A DNA stretch of 33,184 nucleotides from an uncultured bacterium (lineage in GTDB: Bacteria > Verrucomicrobiota > Kiritimatiellia > RFP12 > UBA1067), in the NCBI GenBank assembly GCA_902803135.1, contig CADCPA010000295.1, forward strand, positions 1 through 33,184, read 5' to 3'. Under the pieces are notes generated by a model. That model worked only from the letters and a program-made list of their open reading frames with translations. It did no database searches and was not told the origin of the DNA. Positions 6,139 through 12,746 of this stretch are shown here, piece after piece (positions within the stretch are counted from its first letter, which is position 1; each line of letters begins with the position of its first letter). Position numbers and translations under genes: made by a program.

Positions 6139-6615
6139 ATGAACAGCATCAAGAAAATCGGCGTTCTCGCTTTGGCTCTTTGCGCAACCTTCGCGGCGAG
6201 CGCGTTTCCGCATCACGGCGGTTTCTACGGCGGCTACCACCACCGCCATCATGTCGGCACGGGCTTTGCCATCGGCGCCGGCATCCTCGGCGCCGGTCTG
6301 CTCGCCTCGGCCATCTACGATGCCACGCATCCGTCCTACTACCGTTCGCCCGTCGTCGTGACGCCGCCGGTGGTGACGACGCCTGTGATCCAGCAGCCGG
6401 TCGTCGTACAGCAGCCTGTCATTCAGCAGCCCGTCATTCAGCAGCCCGTCATCCAGCAGCCCGTCGTGCAGGCGGCGCCGCGCTACGAGACCCGGACGCA
6501 GAACGTGTGGGTTGAAGGCCGCTATGTCGACCAGGTCAACGACCGCGGCCAGACGGTTCGCGTGTGGCAGCCCGGCCACTACGAACAGCAGCAGGTTCAG
6601 GTCCAGGTTCCCTGA
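6139..6615 (+). CDS. Secreted His/Val/Gln/Pro-repeat protein, unknown function
   Basis: A 158-residue protein with a signal peptide (MNSIKKIGVLALALCATFAASA). It continues with a His/Gly/Tyr-rich stretch (about 25-40), a Gly/Ala-rich hydrophobic segment (about 43-58, possible membrane or glycine-zipper contact), a VIQQP repeat tract (about 78-110), and a C-terminal block with WVEGRY and WQPGHYE, a pattern shared by small periplasmic proteins with repeated WxPGxY/W units. The ribosome site AAAGGAG lies eight bases before the ATG. The gene lies 64 nt behind secA with no visible terminator between them. Envelope or metal-related function is possible from the His-rich region, but unproven. Confidence 0.75.
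   Translation: MNSIKKIGVLALALCATFAASAFPHHGGFYGGYHHRHHVGTGFAIGAGILGAGLLASAIYDATHPSYYRSPVVVTPPVVTTPVIQQPVVVQQPVIQQPVIQQPVIQQPVVQAAPRYETRTQNVWVEGRYVDQVNDRGQTVRVWQPGHYEQQQVQVQVP
6409..6468 (+). repeat. 15-bp coding tandem repeat, four copies
   Basis: Four consecutive units of the type CAGCAGCCCGTCATT (6409, 6424, 6439, 6454) encode QQPVI/QQPVV. The units differ by one to three bases. Copy-number change would lengthen or shorten the protein by five residues without a frameshift. Confidence 0.85.
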
Positions 6616-6649: not shown

Positions 6650-7468
6650 ATGAAGCATTCCAAGGTTGCGGTCATCGTCCTTGCCCTGGTGATGGTGTTC
6701 CTCTATCTTCCGATCTTCGTTCTGGTCGGAAACTCCTTCAATGCGTCGAAATTCGGAGGTGAATGGTCGGGCTTCACCCTGAAGTGGTACGAGATGCTGT
6801 TTTCGTCCCAAAACCGCGCGATCTGGCAGGCGTTCGAACGGTCGCTGATCATCGCGGCCGCTGCGACAATCGCCTCGTGCATTCTCGGCACGACGGCGGC
6901 TCTTGCGCTTCATCGGTGGAAGGACCGTTTGCAGGCCTTCCACTATGGTCTCATCTACACCCCGCTCGTGATGCCGGAGATCCTCATGGGCATTTCGCTG
7001 CTGATGATGTTCACGGCGGTCGGCATCGGATGCGGACTCTTCACCATCTGGATCGCCCACACGACGTTCTGCGTCTCGTATGTCGCGATGACCGTGCTGG
7101 CGCGTCTTCAGGATTTCGACGACCGCATCACCGAGGCGGCCTACGACCTCGGCGCCGGGCCGTTCTACACGTTTTTCCATGTCGTACTGCCGATCCTGCT
7201 GCCGGGCATCATCGCCGGCGGCCTGCTCGCGTTCACGCTTTCCATCGACGATTTCGTGATCACGTTCTTCGTCACGGGTCCGGGTGCGGACACGCTGCCG
7301 TTGAAAATCTACTCGATGATCAAGCACTCGAAACAGATGCCGGTAATCAACTCCCTGTCGACGTTGATGCTGGTCCTGACTTGCGTGCTCGTGGCTGCTT
7401 CGCGTTTCATGTCCAACCGCCGCCGTCGGCATCTGCCGAGCCTGAAGAGCGCCCGCGCGCTTTCCTGA
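6650..7468 (+). CDS. potC: ABC transporter permease, spermidine/putrescine PotC type
   Basis: A 272-residue inner-membrane permease with about six hydrophobic segments (the first at residues 6-28, the last near 238-256). The EAA loop that docks the ATPase reads EAAYDLGAGPFYTFFHVVLP (about 162-181), and SIDDFVITFFVTGPG is the usual PotC signature. Polyamine uptake needs PotA, PotB and PotD, none of which is in the window, so the partners must be encoded elsewhere or upstream genes have been lost. It starts at ATG 6650 with no clear Shine-Dalgarno, 34 nt after the preceding gene. Related permeases for other cationic or organic substrates are alternatives. Confidence 0.85.
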   Translation: MKHSKVAVIVLALVMVFLYLPIFVLVGNSFNASKFGGEWSGFTLKWYEMLFSSQNRAIWQAFERSLIIAAAATIASCILGTTAALALHRWKDRLQAFHYGLIYTPLVMPEILMGISLLMMFTAVGIGCGLFTIWIAHTTFCVSYVAMTVLARLQDFDDRITEAAYDLGAGPFYTFFHVVLPILLPGIIAGGLLAFTLSIDDFVITFFVTGPGADTLPLKIYSMIKHSKQMPVINSLSTLMLVLTCVLVAASRFMSNRRRRHLPSLKSARALS

Positions 7469-7512
7469 GTGCGCGGGAAATGTCTGCCGCCGCCTTTCGA
7501 CGAGGCGACGGC
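7452..7512 (+). other. Two hairpins at the end of potC
   Basis: CCCGCGC (7452-7458) pairs with GCGCGGG (7471-7477) across the stop codon. A second stem, GCCGCCGCC (7486-7494) with GGCGACGGC (7504-7512), has one mismatch. Neither is followed by a T-run, so they may attenuate or stabilise the mRNA 3' end rather than terminate. They could also be chance in GC-rich DNA. Confidence 0.25.
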
Positions 7513-7544
7513 CGGTCGGACAGTCGGGAATGAGGATTGTCAAG

Positions 7545-9383
7545 ATGAGTGAATGCATTTTCGGTCGGCTGCAACAGCTTCTGCACCTGTCCTTTCGTAC
7601 GATAGCGGCGGTCGCTCTGATTGGCCTCGGCGGGCGTCTGCGCGCCGCAGATCCCTACGTCGCCTACATCTATCCCTCCAGCCTTCAGGCCGGCACGACC
7701 AACCGCGTCGTCGTGGGCGGACAGTTCCTCGGCGGCCTTCGCGGCGGGGACGTCAGCGGGGCACGCGTCACGGTTCTTTCCGCCGAACTCGTCCCCGGCT
7801 TCCCGGCCCCGCCGACGTCGCAGCGGCGTTACCTGACGAAGTGGCTGGACCAGATTGCGGCCGGCGACCGTACCGCGCCGCCGCTGCCGGAAAACGAGGA
7901 TGCGCGCGTCAACGAATGGCCCAGCAACCGCTGGTGGTCCGTGCTCGGAACGCTTGACGCGCAGCAGATCTCCCTGGTCGAGCAGTACCTGTTCACGCCG
8001 CGCAATGCGCTTCAAATGTCTCCCGCCATGAGCCAGAAGGCCCTCGTCACCATCGCGGTTGATGCGGATGCCGCGCTTGGCGCGCGGGATTTCCGATTGT
8101 GGACGCCGAGCGGTTGTTCGCCGCCGCGTCCGCTGATTGTGACGAAATCCGCCCATCTCCAGGAACCGCTCTATACCGCGCCGCACCGCTCCCAGCCAGC
8201 ACGGCCGGAACTCGGCGCCGTTCCCTGCTGGCTCGACGGGCAGATCGACCCCGGCCAGACCGATGCCTGGCGCATGCCCGGTCTCGTCAAGGGCCGCGTC
8301 TTGACCTTTCAGGCGGTCGCCCGCGAGTTCCAGCCCTATATCGGCGACGCCGTACCGGGGTTCTTCAATCCCGTGCTCCGCATCGTCGACGATGCGGGAC
8401 ATGAAGTCGCGCTGGCAGACGATTTCTTCTACCATCCGGACAGCGTGCTCACGTTCACCGTTCCCGCGGATGGCGACTACACGTTGGAGATCCATGACAA
8501 CCTCTACCGCGGACGCGACGATTTCGTCTATTCGATCAAGGTGACGGAAGGGTCTGCGGCACGGCCGAAGCTCGGCGGACTTTCCCTGTCGCCGCTGCCG
8601 GATCTCGCCGTCCCCACGAATGCGCTGATCGCTTCCTTCACGGGCGTGGTGGCCCAGCCCGGCACCGTGGCGACGAATGCCTTTGAAATCGCCGAAGCCG
8701 GCGACTATGTGTTCGACCTGCTGGCCCGCCGCGCGGGTTCGCCCCTCGACGCCCGGTTCGTCGTCTATAACGCCGCGGGAACGGAGGTGTTCCGTTGCAA
8801 CGACGTCACCAACATCGTCCATCTCGGCAGCATCATTCAGGCGGAGTGCGACCCTGTCGGCCGAGTGCGTCTCGAAGCCGGTGCCTATACGGCCTGCGTG
8901 ACGGACGAGGCCCAGAAGGGCGGCGGCGCCTATGGCTACACGCTTCGCATCCACCGTCCTTCGCCCCGCTTCGATGTCTGGGCGAAAAAGAGCGGTCTGG
9001 TCCTCCGTCCCTGGGCAAAGGCTTCGCTGCCGCTGACAATCGTCCGACATGACGGTTTCGACCAACCCATCCATCTGGAGAACAACGCGTATCTCACCTT
9101 CAAGCCCCAGGAGATCCCCGCGGGGACGAATGCGTTCGTCGTCACGGCAACGATGAAGCCGCATCCGCCCGCCTATGAGCCCCATCTCGCCCTGTGGGCC
9201 ACGGCCAAACAAGGCGAGCGTTCGTGGCGTGTTCCCGTCGTGCCCGCCAACGAATACAACCAGGCTTTCGCCTGGAACCATCTTGTCCGTGCCCGCGGTT
9301 TTGCATTCCGTGCGCTTCCCGCACCGCCGCCGAAAAAGCCCCCGGCGAAGCCAGACGACAAGAACACGCCCAAACATCGCTGA
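7545..9383 (+). CDS. Secreted protein with PPC-like beta-sandwich domains, unknown function
   Basis: A protein of about 612 residues. A hydrophobic signal segment (TIAAVALIGLGG) precedes a predicted cleavage near LRAADPYV. The mature start (YVAYIYPSSLQAGTTNRVVVGGQFLGG) resembles an IPT/TIG-like opening. Two later stretches (about 270-330, ending TFTVPADGDYTLEIHDNLYRGRDDFVY, and about 375-465) resemble bacterial pre-peptidase C-terminal (PPC) domains, common in large exported proteins of Planctomycetes and Verrucomicrobia. The C-terminus is a Pro/Lys-rich tail. No catalytic domain was recognised. The ATG at 7545 has AGGA at good spacing; ATG 7530, in the same frame, is an alternative. Confidence 0.7.
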   Translation: MSECIFGRLQQLLHLSFRTIAAVALIGLGGRLRAADPYVAYIYPSSLQAGTTNRVVVGGQFLGGLRGGDVSGARVTVLSAELVPGFPAPPTSQRRYLTKWLDQIAAGDRTAPPLPENEDARVNEWPSNRWWSVLGTLDAQQISLVEQYLFTPRNALQMSPAMSQKALVTIAVDADAALGARDFRLWTPSGCSPPRPLIVTKSAHLQEPLYTAPHRSQPARPELGAVPCWLDGQIDPGQTDAWRMPGLVKGRVLTFQAVAREFQPYIGDAVPGFFNPVLRIVDDAGHEVALADDFFYHPDSVLTFTVPADGDYTLEIHDNLYRGRDDFVYSIKVTEGSAARPKLGGLSLSPLPDLAVPTNALIASFTGVVAQPGTVATNAFEIAEAGDYVFDLLARRAGSPLDARFVVYNAAGTEVFRCNDVTNIVHLGSIIQAECDPVGRVRLEAGAYTACVTDEAQKGGGAYGYTLRIHRPSPRFDVWAKKSGLVLRPWAKASLPLTIVRHDGFDQPIHLENNAYLTFKPQEIPAGTNAFVVTATMKPHPPAYEPHLALWATAKQGERSWRVPVVPANEYNQAFAWNHLVRARGFAFRALPAPPPKKPPAKPDDKNTPKHR

Positions 9384-9425
9384 TACGGCCGGTCGACTCG
9401 ACCTCCAGGAGAAGGAGAACATGTT

Positions 9426-10370
9426 ATGAAAATAGGTCTGATGGCGATGATTGTCGCCGTGGGTGCGACGATCTGGGCGGGTCCGCGCGAAGACGGACTC
9501 TTCATTTCCCATGTCCATCGCGGCGGCGGCAAGTTTGAGCGTCCCGACAATACGCTGGAAACGTTCCTCTGGTGTTGGGGCAACGGCTCGGCGCTCGAGT
9601 GCGACTGCCGGTGCACGAAGGACGGGGTCGGAATCATGTTCCACGACAACGATCTCAAACGGACGCCGCGGGGCATTCCGGAGGCGTGGAAGACGCGCAG
9701 GATCGACGAGATGGACTGGGCGGAACTCCGCGACATCGACGTCGGCTCCTATCTGGATCCACAGTATGCGTCGCAGCGCATTCCCACGATGCAGGCCGTG
9801 ATGGCGGCGATGGCGGGGCATCCGTCGTACCTCCTGTTCGTGGACGAGAAGGGGGCGGGGCCGGCGCGCATTGCCGCCGAGGCCCGCAAGGCCGGCGTGC
9901 TTGACCAAATCTACTACACCGGCAACAGCTATGCCAACATCGTGAAATGGAACGAGCTCGTGCCCGGGGGCAAATCGCTCCTTTGGATCGGCAAGTTCCC
10001 CAGATTCAAGGACCGCTTCGATCCCGCGGCGCGTGCGGTCTTGACGAAGACCGTGCAGGCGCATTTCGAGAAGTACATGGTCGAGCTGCGCAAGGCCGGC
10101 TTCAAGTACGTCACCGCCGTGTCGCTGCACACCTACTGGAATCCCGCGGATCCCGTGGATCCGTTCATCCTCGGCACGGACTACCTGAAGAAGCTCATCG
10201 ACGAGTTTCACGCGCATGGCGTGAAGGTCTGCTCGATTCCGTTCGAGGGCGGTGAAAAGGAAGAATGCTACTACCGCCTCTGGGAACTCGGCTGCGACGG
10301 CTTCTCGACCGACTATCCCTCCGTCATGTTCAAAGTCATCCACGATCTGAAAAGCAAGGGCGTCCCGTGA
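9426..10370 (+). CDS. Secreted glycerophosphodiester phosphodiesterase-like protein
   Basis: A 314-residue protein with a short signal peptide (MKIGLMAMIVAVGATIWAG). GDPD-family motifs follow: ISHVHRGGG...RPDNTLETF corresponds to the HRG..PENT box, ALECDCRCTKDGV to the metal-binding E.D....KDG box, and MFHDNDLKRT to the HD box (second catalytic His). The C-terminal half keeps the TIM-barrel pattern (GCDGFSTDYP near the end). Predicted to hydrolyse glycerophosphodiesters outside the cytoplasm; true substrates in this lineage are unknown. AGGAGAAGGAG lies upstream of the ATG. Its TGA overlaps the next start (GTGA, 10367-10370). Confidence 0.85.
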   Translation: MKIGLMAMIVAVGATIWAGPREDGLFISHVHRGGGKFERPDNTLETFLWCWGNGSALECDCRCTKDGVGIMFHDNDLKRTPRGIPEAWKTRRIDEMDWAELRDIDVGSYLDPQYASQRIPTMQAVMAAMAGHPSYLLFVDEKGAGPARIAAEARKAGVLDQIYYTGNSYANIVKWNELVPGGKSLLWIGKFPRFKDRFDPAARAVLTKTVQAHFEKYMVELRKAGFKYVTAVSLHTYWNPADPVDPFILGTDYLKKLIDEFHAHGVKVCSIPFEGGEKEECYYRLWELGCDGFSTDYPSVMFKVIHDLKSKGVP

Positions 10371-11833
10371 GCTGCTCCTTCGACCAGGCGCTGGACATCG
10401 TCACCCAGCTCCTCGACGCCCTCCATCGCGCCCATCTTGGCGAAGCGCCCGACTTCGACATCGTGCCAGACGGCCTGATCGTCAAGATGGACGATAACAA
10501 CCGTCCCGTCGTGCGCATCGACCTCGATCGGGGCGATGATGTGTGTCCGCCGAAGCCGCTGTCCCTTTGGCGCTACCGCGCACCGGAACGCTGGTGGGGC
10601 GCCGAGAAGAATTCGTGGACGGACCAATATGCGTTGGCGGCGTTGTTTGTCGAACTCGTCACGGGCGAGGCGCCGTTTGCCGACGTCTTCGCGACGGAAG
10701 ACGTGAACATCGTCAAGACGGTGCTGGCGAACCGGCCGCCGAACCTGCCAGCAGATCTTCCGCGGCGTGCGGTTCTGCTGCGTGCCCTGGCCAAGGATCC
10801 GCGCGCCCGCTATCGGAGCTGCTCGGCGTTTGTCGCCGCGCTTGCCGGCTTCCCCTCCGCGAAGACGGCGTCTTCTGCCGAACAGGCCGACGTACAGTCC
10901 CGCAAGACGCGTGTGCGACGCCCGCTGGCGAAGCGGACGATCGCCTTTGCCCTGGCGGCGATCGCCGCCCTCGTGTGGGGATTCAAGTCCGGTTGGCTGC
11001 AGCAGATGCTCGAGACGTACGGCAGCTCGCGTCAAGTCGACTACCAGAAGCGGGTGGACGCCTATGAGAAGGCGCGCGCCGCCGAACAGACTTCGTTCCG
11101 GCAGGACCGCGAAGCGAAACTCGCGGCACTGCAGGCGGAAATCGGACGGCAGAGCGCGGTCGCCGCCGCCGCGTTGAAAGAGTATCGGGATTTTCTCGCG
11201 AACGGGGGGTGTGCGGCCCTGTCCGTTTCACGCGATGTCCGCGCGCAAAAGGCCCGGAAGGCCGCCGAGGACCTCTCCACTGCGGAGAACGAGCTGACGG
11301 CGGACCGGACGCTGGAAAATGCGTTGATCTCCCTGCTGCAGTCCGGCAAATTCATGAGCGGTGTCGTGCCGCGGGCGATTCCGGCGGACTCCGAAGTCGT
11401 GGCCGCCTACCGGAATCTGATCGAGAAGGCGAAGTCCCTTGGCGACTTGCAGCTCAAATACACCGACAGGCATCCGTCGGTCATTGCCGCCCAGAAGAAC
11501 CATTCGGATGCCAAGATCCGTTTCACGACGGCGATCGATGGTGCACGGAAGCAGATCCAGACGCGCATCGAACTGCGTGAGAAGACGGTCGACGGGCTTC
11601 GACATGTGTCTGAAGCGGCCGAAAAGGAGTCGTTGTCGGCCGAACAGGCCTTTGCGGCGGCCGAGGCGAAGCAGTTTGCCCTCAAGCGAGCCGTCGAGCG
11701 CGAATCCGACCGTCTGGCCGATCTGCGACGCAAAGAGATCGAGCTTCGGTTCGGGATTCGGTTCGGGACGGCGTCCGCGTCGACAAATAGAGCCGAAAAA
11801 GCGGAACAAGTGGCGCGCGAACCTCACTTATGA
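10367..11833 (+). CDS. Truncated pseudokinase C-lobe with membrane anchor and long coiled coil
   Basis: A 488-residue protein starting at GTG that overlaps the upstream stop. Residues about 4-160 follow a Ser/Thr kinase C-lobe: helix E (FDQALDIVTQLLDALHRAH), a degenerate catalytic loop (DFDIVPDGL in place of HRDIKPSNI; Asp kept, Lys and Asn lost), DLDRG in place of DFG, an intact APERW, and TDQYALAALFVELVTGEAPF. The ATP-binding N-lobe with the Gly loop and VAIK lysine is absent. A membrane helix (TIAFALAAIAALVWGF, about 191-207) is followed by about 260 residues of Ala/Glu/Lys/Arg-rich coiled coil, predicted to lie outside the cytoplasm. It is probably a scaffold or sensor rather than an enzyme. 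The last codons overlap the dapA promoter. Confidence 0.7.
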   Translation: MSCSFDQALDIVTQLLDALHRAHLGEAPDFDIVPDGLIVKMDDNNRPVVRIDLDRGDDVCPPKPLSLWRYRAPERWWGAEKNSWTDQYALAALFVELVTGEAPFADVFATEDVNIVKTVLANRPPNLPADLPRRAVLLRALAKDPRARYRSCSAFVAALAGFPSAKTASSAEQADVQSRKTRVRRPLAKRTIAFALAAIAALVWGFKSGWLQQMLETYGSSRQVDYQKRVDAYEKARAAEQTSFRQDREAKLAALQAEIGRQSAVAAAALKEYRDFLANGGCAALSVSRDVRAQKARKAAEDLSTAENELTADRTLENALISLLQSGKFMSGVVPRAIPADSEVVAAYRNLIEKAKSLGDLQLKYTDRHPSVIAAQKNHSDAKIRFTTAIDGARKQIQTRIELREKTVDGLRHVSEAAEKESLSAEQAFAAAEAKQFALKRAVERESDRLADLRRKEIELRFGIRFGTASASTNRAEKAEQVAREPHL

Positions 11834-11867: not shown

Positions 11868-12746
11868 ATGTTGAAGCTGAAAGGTACGATCACGGCGATG
11901 GTGACGCCGTTTGACGCGAACGACAATGTGGACTATGGCGCCCTGAAGGCCTTCGTCGACTGGCAGTGCGAGAGCGGGGTGGAAGGCATTTGCGCCGTCG
12001 GCACGAGCGGCGAGTCGCCCACGCTGTCCCATGAAGAACACCACAAGGTCATTGAGAAGACGATTGAATTTGCCGCGGGCCGCGTGAAGGTCATTGCCGG
12101 TACGGGCGCGAACTCCACGGCCGAAGCCATTTCCCTGACGCGTGCGGCCATCGCCGCCGGCGGGGCGGATGCCTCGCTTCAGGTGACGCCGTACTACAAC
12201 AAGCCGAACGCCGAAGGCATCTACCGTCACTTTGCGACAATCGCCGATCTCGGTCTGCCGGTCGTGCTGTACAACGTGCCGGGCCGCAGCGGCAGGGAGA
12301 TTCCGCTCGACGTCGTCGCGCGCCTGGCGCAGCATCCGAACGTGGTGGCGATCAAGGAAGCCGGCGGCAGCGTCGAGCGTGTGAGCGCGATCAAGCACAT
12401 CTGCCCCGACTTCACGGTTCTGTCCGGCGACGATTCACTGACGCTGCCGATGGTGAGCGTGGGTGCGGAAGGCGTGATTTCCGTCGCGTCGAACGTCATG
12501 CCGAAGGAAGTCGGCGATTTCGTGCGCCTCGCGCTGGCCGAAGATTTCCCCGCGGCCCGTGCGGCGCATTTCAAGCTCTACAATCTGTTCCATGATCTGT
12601 TCATCGACACGAATCCGATCATGGTGAAGGAAGCGCTGGTGCTGATGAAGAAGATCGGTCCGGGTTTCCGTCTGCCGCTGTGCGAGACGACGCCCGAGAA
12701 GCGCGAGCAGATGCGCAAGACGCTGGCCGCGCTCGGCCTCGTCTGA
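11868..12746 (+). CDS. dapA: 4-hydroxy-tetrahydrodipicolinate synthase DapA
   Basis: A 292-residue TIM-barrel lyase condensing pyruvate with aspartate semialdehyde, the first committed step to diaminopimelate and lysine. Signatures are AVGTSGESPTLSHEEH (near residue 40), VTPYYNKPN with the active-site Tyr (about 107-114), YNVPGRSG, and AIKEAGG carrying the Schiff-base Lys (about 162). Length matches the family. The start at 11868 has AAGGAG at good spacing. dapB follows 77 nt downstream, so the two consecutive pathway enzymes are likely co-transcribed from the promoter at 11831. Confidence 0.96.
   Translation: MLKLKGTITAMVTPFDANDNVDYGALKAFVDWQCESGVEGICAVGTSGESPTLSHEEHHKVIEKTIEFAAGRVKVIAGTGANSTAEAISLTRAAIAAGGADASLQVTPYYNKPNAEGIYRHFATIADLGLPVVLYNVPGRSGREIPLDVVARLAQHPNVVAIKEAGGSVERVSAIKHICPDFTVLSGDDSLTLPMVSVGAEGVISVASNVMPKEVGDFVRLALAEDFPAARAAHFKLYNLFHDLFIDTNPIMVKEALVLMKKIGPGFRLPLCETTPEKREQMRKTLAALGLV

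Follow-up and report, generated by a model that had tools for sequence, protein, structure and literature searches.

The gene at positions 10367 to 11833 codes a protein in which the C-terminal lobe of a Hanks-type Ser/Thr kinase, devoid of the N-lobe, is joined through one predicted transmembrane (TM) helix to a helical hairpin of the type found in PCP-2 polysaccharide co-polymerases (PCPs). The C-lobe homology, the absence of the N-lobe, the loss of the catalytic-loop Lys and Asn, the homology of the rod to a PCP coil and purifying constraint on both modules are all established by sequence comparison. The window, i.e., the whole 33,184-nucleotide stretch analysed, is an entire contig of an 81%-complete assembly (G000), and a full-length homologue occurs in a second genome of the same genus (G001). 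The first-pass annotation of this DNA had described a half kinase with a membrane helix and a coiled coil; the homology of that coil to the PCP-2 helical region had been missed. The features concerned are the following.

9426..10370, plus strand: glycerophosphodiester phosphodiesterase (GDPD) gene, upstream (PF03009, 8.5e-17); orthologue elsewhere in G001, not a conserved neighbour
10367..11833, plus strand: CDS, 488 aa, GTG start, C-lobe pseudokinase, TM and PCP-type helical hairpin (open frame, full-length G001 homologue)
10367..10846, plus strand: kinase C-lobe, helix alphaE to alphaI, residues 1-160, probably cytoplasmic (phmmer to PknF/PknA/PknB, alignment with full kinases)
10451..10474, plus strand: degenerate catalytic loop DFDIVPDG, residues 29-36, HRD Asp kept, Lys and Asn lost (alignment)
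10526..10534, plus strand: DFG-equivalent DRG, residues 54-56 (alignment)
10580..10588, plus strand: APE motif, residues 72-74, 15 residues after DRG (alignment)
10847..10936, plus strand: basic linker, residues 161-190, near-neutral evolution
10937..10993, plus strand: predicted TM helix, residues 191-209, N-in (hydropathy and flanking charge)
10997..11752, plus strand: helical hairpin, residues 211-462, homologous to the PCP-2/Wzc-type coil, probably periplasmic (profile searches, hhalign, AF2)
11868..12746, plus strand: downstream gene, which from its sequence we take to be dapA; orthologue in G001:C258, not a conserved neighbour

A kinase C-lobe devoid of the N-lobe

In phmmer searches against PDB chains, residues 8-159 matched PknF (7naa, 2.8e-10) and residues 4-172 matched PknA (4x3f, 6.8e-9), with PknE and PknB entries also found; these alignments begin at chain residues about 114-135, which correspond to helix alphaE. 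The window protein scores 16.3 bits (E 0.0066) against a PF00069 gathering score of 31.7, which the G001 homologue passes (43.2 bits, 4.2e-11, profile positions 93-251 of 263). Judged from these alignments, the kinase resemblance is beyond chance. The protein starts at alphaE, and G-loop, beta3 Lys and alphaC Glu are all missing; the G001 homologue, a 500-aa open reading frame (ORF) starting at the kinase hinge, has no N-lobe either, so the earlier description of a C-lobe-only pseudokinase is borne out.

The catalytic loop reads DFDIVPDG in the window protein versus HRDIKPSN in related kinases: D31 is kept, while V33 and G36 replace the Lys and the Asn, as had been noticed from the sequence alone. 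The losses are common to both copies (V or I for Lys, G or T for Asn), and both Asp are kept. The DFG position aligns with DRG, in which D54 and G56 are retained; thus, of the two changes previously claimed at this motif, the loss of the Phe stands, whereas the change of the Gly is not supported by this alignment. The segment between DFG and APE spans 15 residues in both copies versus 26 in the related kinase L052, i.e., 11 fewer. The APE motif, the alphaF Asp and the alphaH-alphaI Arg have structural roles in the C-lobe scaffold, and all of them (A72-P73-E74, D86 and R148) are kept and shared with G001, in agreement with the view of a well-kept scaffold; alphaD is also lost in the window copy as compared with G001.

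Standard phosphotransfer would not be expected of a protein that has neither an N-lobe nor this Lys and Asn. A split kinase, whose C-lobe is still catalytic and receives its N-lobe in trans, would account for the HRD and DFG-equivalent Asp kept in both copies; it is very improbable, given the loss of the catalytic-loop Lys and Asn in both. Moreover, the three matches to the first part only of PF00069 (G000:C49, G000:C165 and G001:C304) have coordinates at the ends of their contigs and are probably cut genes, although absence is no proof in incomplete metagenome-assembled genomes. Structure prediction of the kinase half had low confidence: AF2 with the two-row alignment gave a pLDDT of 27-52 in blocks of ten across residues 1-200, and the G001 kinase half modelled alone had a mean pLDDT of 46.8, with a Foldseek list headed by kinases (E 7.7e-5) that, at an rmsd of 8.5, lends slight support at most. 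For this reason, the case for C-lobe homology is a sequence-based one.

The reading frame is open upstream of the GTG start to an ATG at 10265 (34 extra codons); however, this DNA belongs to the GDPD coding region, and conservation of GDPD runs to its end in the G001 orthologue, so that no room is left for an N-lobe upstream of 10367. A hidden upstream N-lobe was thus ruled out by the end of GDPD in the window and by that of citrate synthase in G001. Both assemblies are fragmented (348 contigs in G000 and about 440 in G001), which could in principle produce a chimeric contig or a wrong start; such an artefact is hardly credible, since the same layout recurs in two assemblies with different neighbours and at 40% identity, and the upstream DNA is taken by other genes in both. 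Elsewhere in the window, a 978-codon open frame (7407-10343, minus strand) runs antisense to GDPD and its neighbour and is probably a G+C-rich artefact, and a small ORF (6139-6615, plus strand) contains a PVIQQ-type repeated stretch.

Bilobal Ser/Thr kinases of the same family (PF00069; e.g., L052 in G011:C1 and L050 in G005:C49) resemble the pair in C-lobe sequence, the window protein reaching up to 45% identity over 154 columns (L092), and many of them carry a hydrophobic stretch after the kinase domain. They differ from the pair by the presence of the N-lobe, HRDxKPxN, DFG and a 26-residue DFG-APE segment (in L052), and their tails are also different: Sel1 in L050, FGE-sulfatase in L091 and a sub-threshold Lcl_C in L052. 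G-loop, beta3 Lys and HRDxKPxN were seen in most of the listed rows of the related-kinase alignment. In a 36-row tree, from which L054_990 was left out, the window and G001 proteins form a pair at 99/98, nested inside a 19-row set at 99/99; the branch of the window copy is long (1.41 vs 0.63 for the G001 copy), which makes the finer placement of the pair unsure. Among the fetched frames matching the kinase half elsewhere, which cover part of all matches, six start at contig ends and give no indication either way; the others, except that of G001, have at least 108 residues upstream of the match, and no other N-lobe-less relative was found in this set. Because both copies are without the N-lobe while the related kinases examined are bilobal, the N-lobe was lost in an ancestor of the pair. 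The contrary scenario raised in the first-pass annotation, a loss in this copy only with a full kinase in close relatives, does not agree with the sole full-length homologue.

Two further degenerate kinases were observed among the relatives. L091 (555-2819, G133:C212) is a separate, full-size pseudokinase with no HRD, an altered G-loop and an FGE-sulfatase domain, and it adjoins two other kinase genes. L034 (1218-2993, minus strand, G023:C218) reads HRAIKPSN for HRDIKPSN, the catalytic Asp being replaced by Ala, and its N-lobe is present.

The membrane helix and the PCP-2-type rod

Outside the kinase part, the sole hydrophobic segment corresponds to residues 191-209, in agreement with the single membrane helix described earlier; its 19-residue Kyte-Doolittle mean is borderline in the window protein (1.58) versus 2.34 in G001, and the two TM helices of PCP-2 proteins are thus not both found. 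The 15 residues that precede it include seven K/R and no D/E. Since the N-side of the segment is strongly basic, the charge pattern suggests an N-in topology with a cytoplasmic C-lobe and a periplasmic rod, which makes the extracytoplasmic rod proposed earlier probable.

AF2 predicted helices at residues 211-280, 282-325, 343-364 and 370-462, with a pLDDT per ten residues of 81-96 over 241-460, except for 71 at 321-330, and of 50-76 at 211-240. A weak match to the polysaccharide chain-length determinant TIGR03007, far below the cut-off (8e-4, residues 297-460), was found in NCBIfam. Coil matches are present in many relatives, usually in one large frame per genome, mostly of 600-980 aa and some shorter. 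Three of these large frames were scanned with Pfam: L017 showed a sub-threshold Wzz at 59-131, GNVR at 408-479 and AAA_31 at 561-695, while L002, from the same genome as the window, and the L130 frame of G001 had matches close to the cut-offs for AAA_31, CbiA, GNVR or Wzz. The coil-matched region of L017 (198-433) lies between Wzz and GNVR.

A profile (A3) was built from 17 PCP coils, the window protein not being included. Run over the whole G000 and G001 genomes at E<=10, it gave exactly two matches in each (seven scored candidates each), namely the PCP (2.0e-104 in G000, 1.1e-120 in G001) and the pseudokinase (5.0e-15 in the window, 7.8e-27 in G001). In the opposite direction, the coil profile of the pair matched, at E<=10, only the pair and PCP-like frames among 1010 frames of at least 150 aa from 103 fetched loci, and no other kinase frame in this set; G019:C47, a candidate for a second fusion of kinase and coil, was dropped, its profile match being confined to the kinase part. 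The hhalign comparison gave a probability of 99.4 (E 2.4e-21). With the PCP profile the window coil scored 56.2 bits, while none of 1000 shuffles, 500 of which keep the heptad position, exceeded 11.3; the reading of the PCP-profile search in this set covers the last 25 of its 37 rows. A stretch characteristic of these PCPs, GxxxxxIPxxSEVxxAY...K[YF]TxxHPxV, is also preserved in the coil. By the reciprocal profile searches and hhalign, the rod and the periplasmic helical region of PCP-2/Wzc-type co-polymerases are homologous.

The likeness to the Wzc-GumC co-polymerases (Wzz PF02706, GNVR PF13807, AAA_31 PF13614) concerns the helical region between Wzz and GNVR; the window protein differs in having no Wzz, GNVR or ATPase match, one TM instead of two, and a kinase C-lobe and TM in front. 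No Pfam match to the Wzz region or GNVR was obtained at E<=1 for the window protein; in the scanned PCPs themselves, Wzz stays below threshold in L017 and L002 and is not listed for G001, and GNVR reaches its cut-off in L017 alone. Neither coil alignment retrieved Wzc from the PDB in profile searches, which returned only weak unrelated coiled coils. Foldseek run on the full model listed coiled coils of a generic kind; none reached E<=0.001, and the 50 listed rows contained no PCP. Wzc did not stand out in these searches by either sequence or fold; the case for homology of the rod is built on the PCPs of the same lineage.

Each genome also has a PCP proper, which the pseudokinase gene does not adjoin in either of them: the PCP neighbour in G000 is a gene with a sub-threshold Wzy_C match, and in G001, where the PCP is on contig C128, the neighbours are genes for an outer-membrane barrel and a nucleotide-sugar epimerase. 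This lack of linkage, together with the missing Wzz region and second TM, would fit a hairpin that is a mere rod or oligomerisation spacer, the protein being a docking platform that is anchored in the membrane, serves Ser/Thr kinase signalling and is uninvolved in polysaccharide export. The kinase-domain matches are indeed many (15 to PF00069 in G000 and 22 in G001, fragments included), and the parent-family kinases vary in their tails and have hydrophobic stretches on the C-terminal side; however, the PCP-typical stretch of the coil would be unnecessary for a mere spacer, and this reading is considered somewhat unlikely.

Distribution, constraint and gene neighbourhood

In the first homologue search, which covered 59 genomes (G000 and 58 relatives), the G001 protein was the only full-length match outside G000, at 40-41% identity and with window residues 5-478 aligned; its contig is the public JAUNMP010000297.1. 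The pseudokinase was found in two of the 16 genomes of the genus. Two-row profile searches gave no further full-length copy in the family (114 genomes), the order (161) or the class (345), and none was found outside G000 in an even draw of 387 genomes of the phylum at a stricter cut-off; up to four candidates per genome were scored in the class and phylum searches, with cut-offs of 1e-32 and 1e-40, respectively. Two phylum matches, in frames of 1111 and 1199 aa (G537 and G539), reach profile positions 270 and 306. Searches for related loci with the single window protein and a viral scan found no relative, and the related-loci search with the two-row profile A1 returned only the G001 contig and a weak Myxococcota kinase match. 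The distribution of the fusion of C-lobe and PCP hairpin is therefore very narrow.

Between the two copies, dN/dS (NG86) is 0.53/1.19 = 0.45 for the C-lobe and 0.62/1.45 = 0.43 for the coil, while for the linker and TM (residues 161-212) it is 0.90/0.91, about 1. Comparison genes of the same genomes have values of 0.13-0.21 (GDPD 0.12/0.83, dapA 0.08/0.64, gltA 0.14/0.68). C-lobe and coil are under purifying constraint, weaker than that on these three genes, and the linker is not constrained. No stop or frameshift interrupts the 488 and 500 codons, despite a high synonymous divergence (dS 1.31); because this divergence exceeds that of the core genes, the relation between the copies may be other than simple orthology. 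The claim of a real gene, and not debris, holds in view of the same fusion in G001 and of the constraint on both modules.

The GTG start overlaps the TGA of GDPD as GTGA, as had been reported, but the coupling with GDPD, taken at first as a sign of a functional partner, does not extend to G001, where the GDPD orthologue (84%) is on another contig (C192) with no pseudokinase behind it. The suggested search for homologues with the same truncation and a GDPD neighbour recovered an N-lobe-less copy, although in a different setting: the G001 gene lies 12 bases 3′ of a gene for a presumed citrate synthase (gltA) and is followed by what we take, also from the sequence, to be argJ. Of the 15 gltA loci compared in the genus, three (G003, G004 and G014) have argJ directly adjacent and no pseudokinase, that of G001 has the pseudokinase between the two genes, and the other 11 show no argJ within the examined flank. 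Neither GDPD nor the pseudokinase was found in the flanks examined of 12 dapA loci of the genus, including G001:C258. The pseudokinase gene therefore occupies different gaps in the two genomes, and the coupling with GDPD is seen only in G000; a common locus of origin was not supported by comparison of the gltA loci. Loci L053, L144, L145 and L146 show the two gltA-argJ arrangements, direct neighbours in G003, G004 and G014 and a split pair in G001.

The occurrence in two of 16 genus genomes and two of 345 class genomes, the different neighbours, the greater divergence of the window copy with its lost alphaD, and the unconstrained linker could all be expected if the gene were a relic, under relaxed selection or in decay, of a fusion between kinase and PCP that two genomes happen to have retained. 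Yet the intact frames at this synonymous distance, the dN/dS of both modules and the conserved scaffold residues argue against decay, and a relic is regarded as quite unlikely.

A possible adaptor for polysaccharide export

The reading preferred here, tentatively, is that of a dead C-lobe acting as a membrane-tethered docking scaffold, which through its PCP-type periplasmic hairpin would modulate polysaccharide polymerisation or export. In this mechanism, a catalytically dead, N-lobe-less C-lobe on the cytoplasmic face would be tethered by one TM to a hairpin descended from a Wzc/GumC-type PCP-2; the C-lobe could offer a docking surface to an active Ser/Thr kinase or another cytosolic partner, the hairpin could, on the periplasmic side, make contact with the PCP or with the machinery for export, and the protein may thus work as a phosphorylation-independent transmembrane adaptor. 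In Wzc, the ring in the periplasm owes its cohesion chiefly to a beta motif that is not part of the bundle of helices (PMC8285477), so that the protein would not be expected simply to co-assemble into such a ring; since the protein has the PCP helical part alone, an adaptor or competitor at the helical bundle would be favoured over a ring subunit.

An analogy of working is offered by EcpK of Myxococcus xanthus, a BY pseudokinase which is proposed to scaffold a PCP without phosphorylation (PMC12004946); EcpK is of the tyrosine (BY) type and a separate protein, whereas the window protein has a Hanks-type C-lobe fused to the PCP-type coil. EssB/YukC and MviN-type proteins are also membrane-anchored bacterial pseudokinases with a short activation loop; they have an N-lobe, with a degraded glycine-rich loop in EssB/YukC and N-lobe constraints in MviN being described (PMC12599244), unlike the window protein. 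Among the titles and abstract openings listed from the open-licence PMC literature, none concerned a C-lobe-only kinase, and no kinase literature on Kiritimatiellota or Verrucomicrobia was found in the same collection.

Discussion of pseudokinases usually concerns complete, two-lobed folds. A conserved form reduced to the C-lobe would show that selection can favour the lower lobe by itself, presumably for docking. That the N-lobe-free C-lobe is a maintained domain wired to a PCP stalk, in a chimeric regulator linking Ser/Thr-kinase docking to periplasmic control of polysaccharide export, is an unlikely proposal as a whole. The joining of the C-lobe to a PCP-type coil suggests that Ser/Thr kinase signalling and polysaccharide export, which is otherwise linked with tyrosine (BY) kinases, could be connected by a direct physical path.
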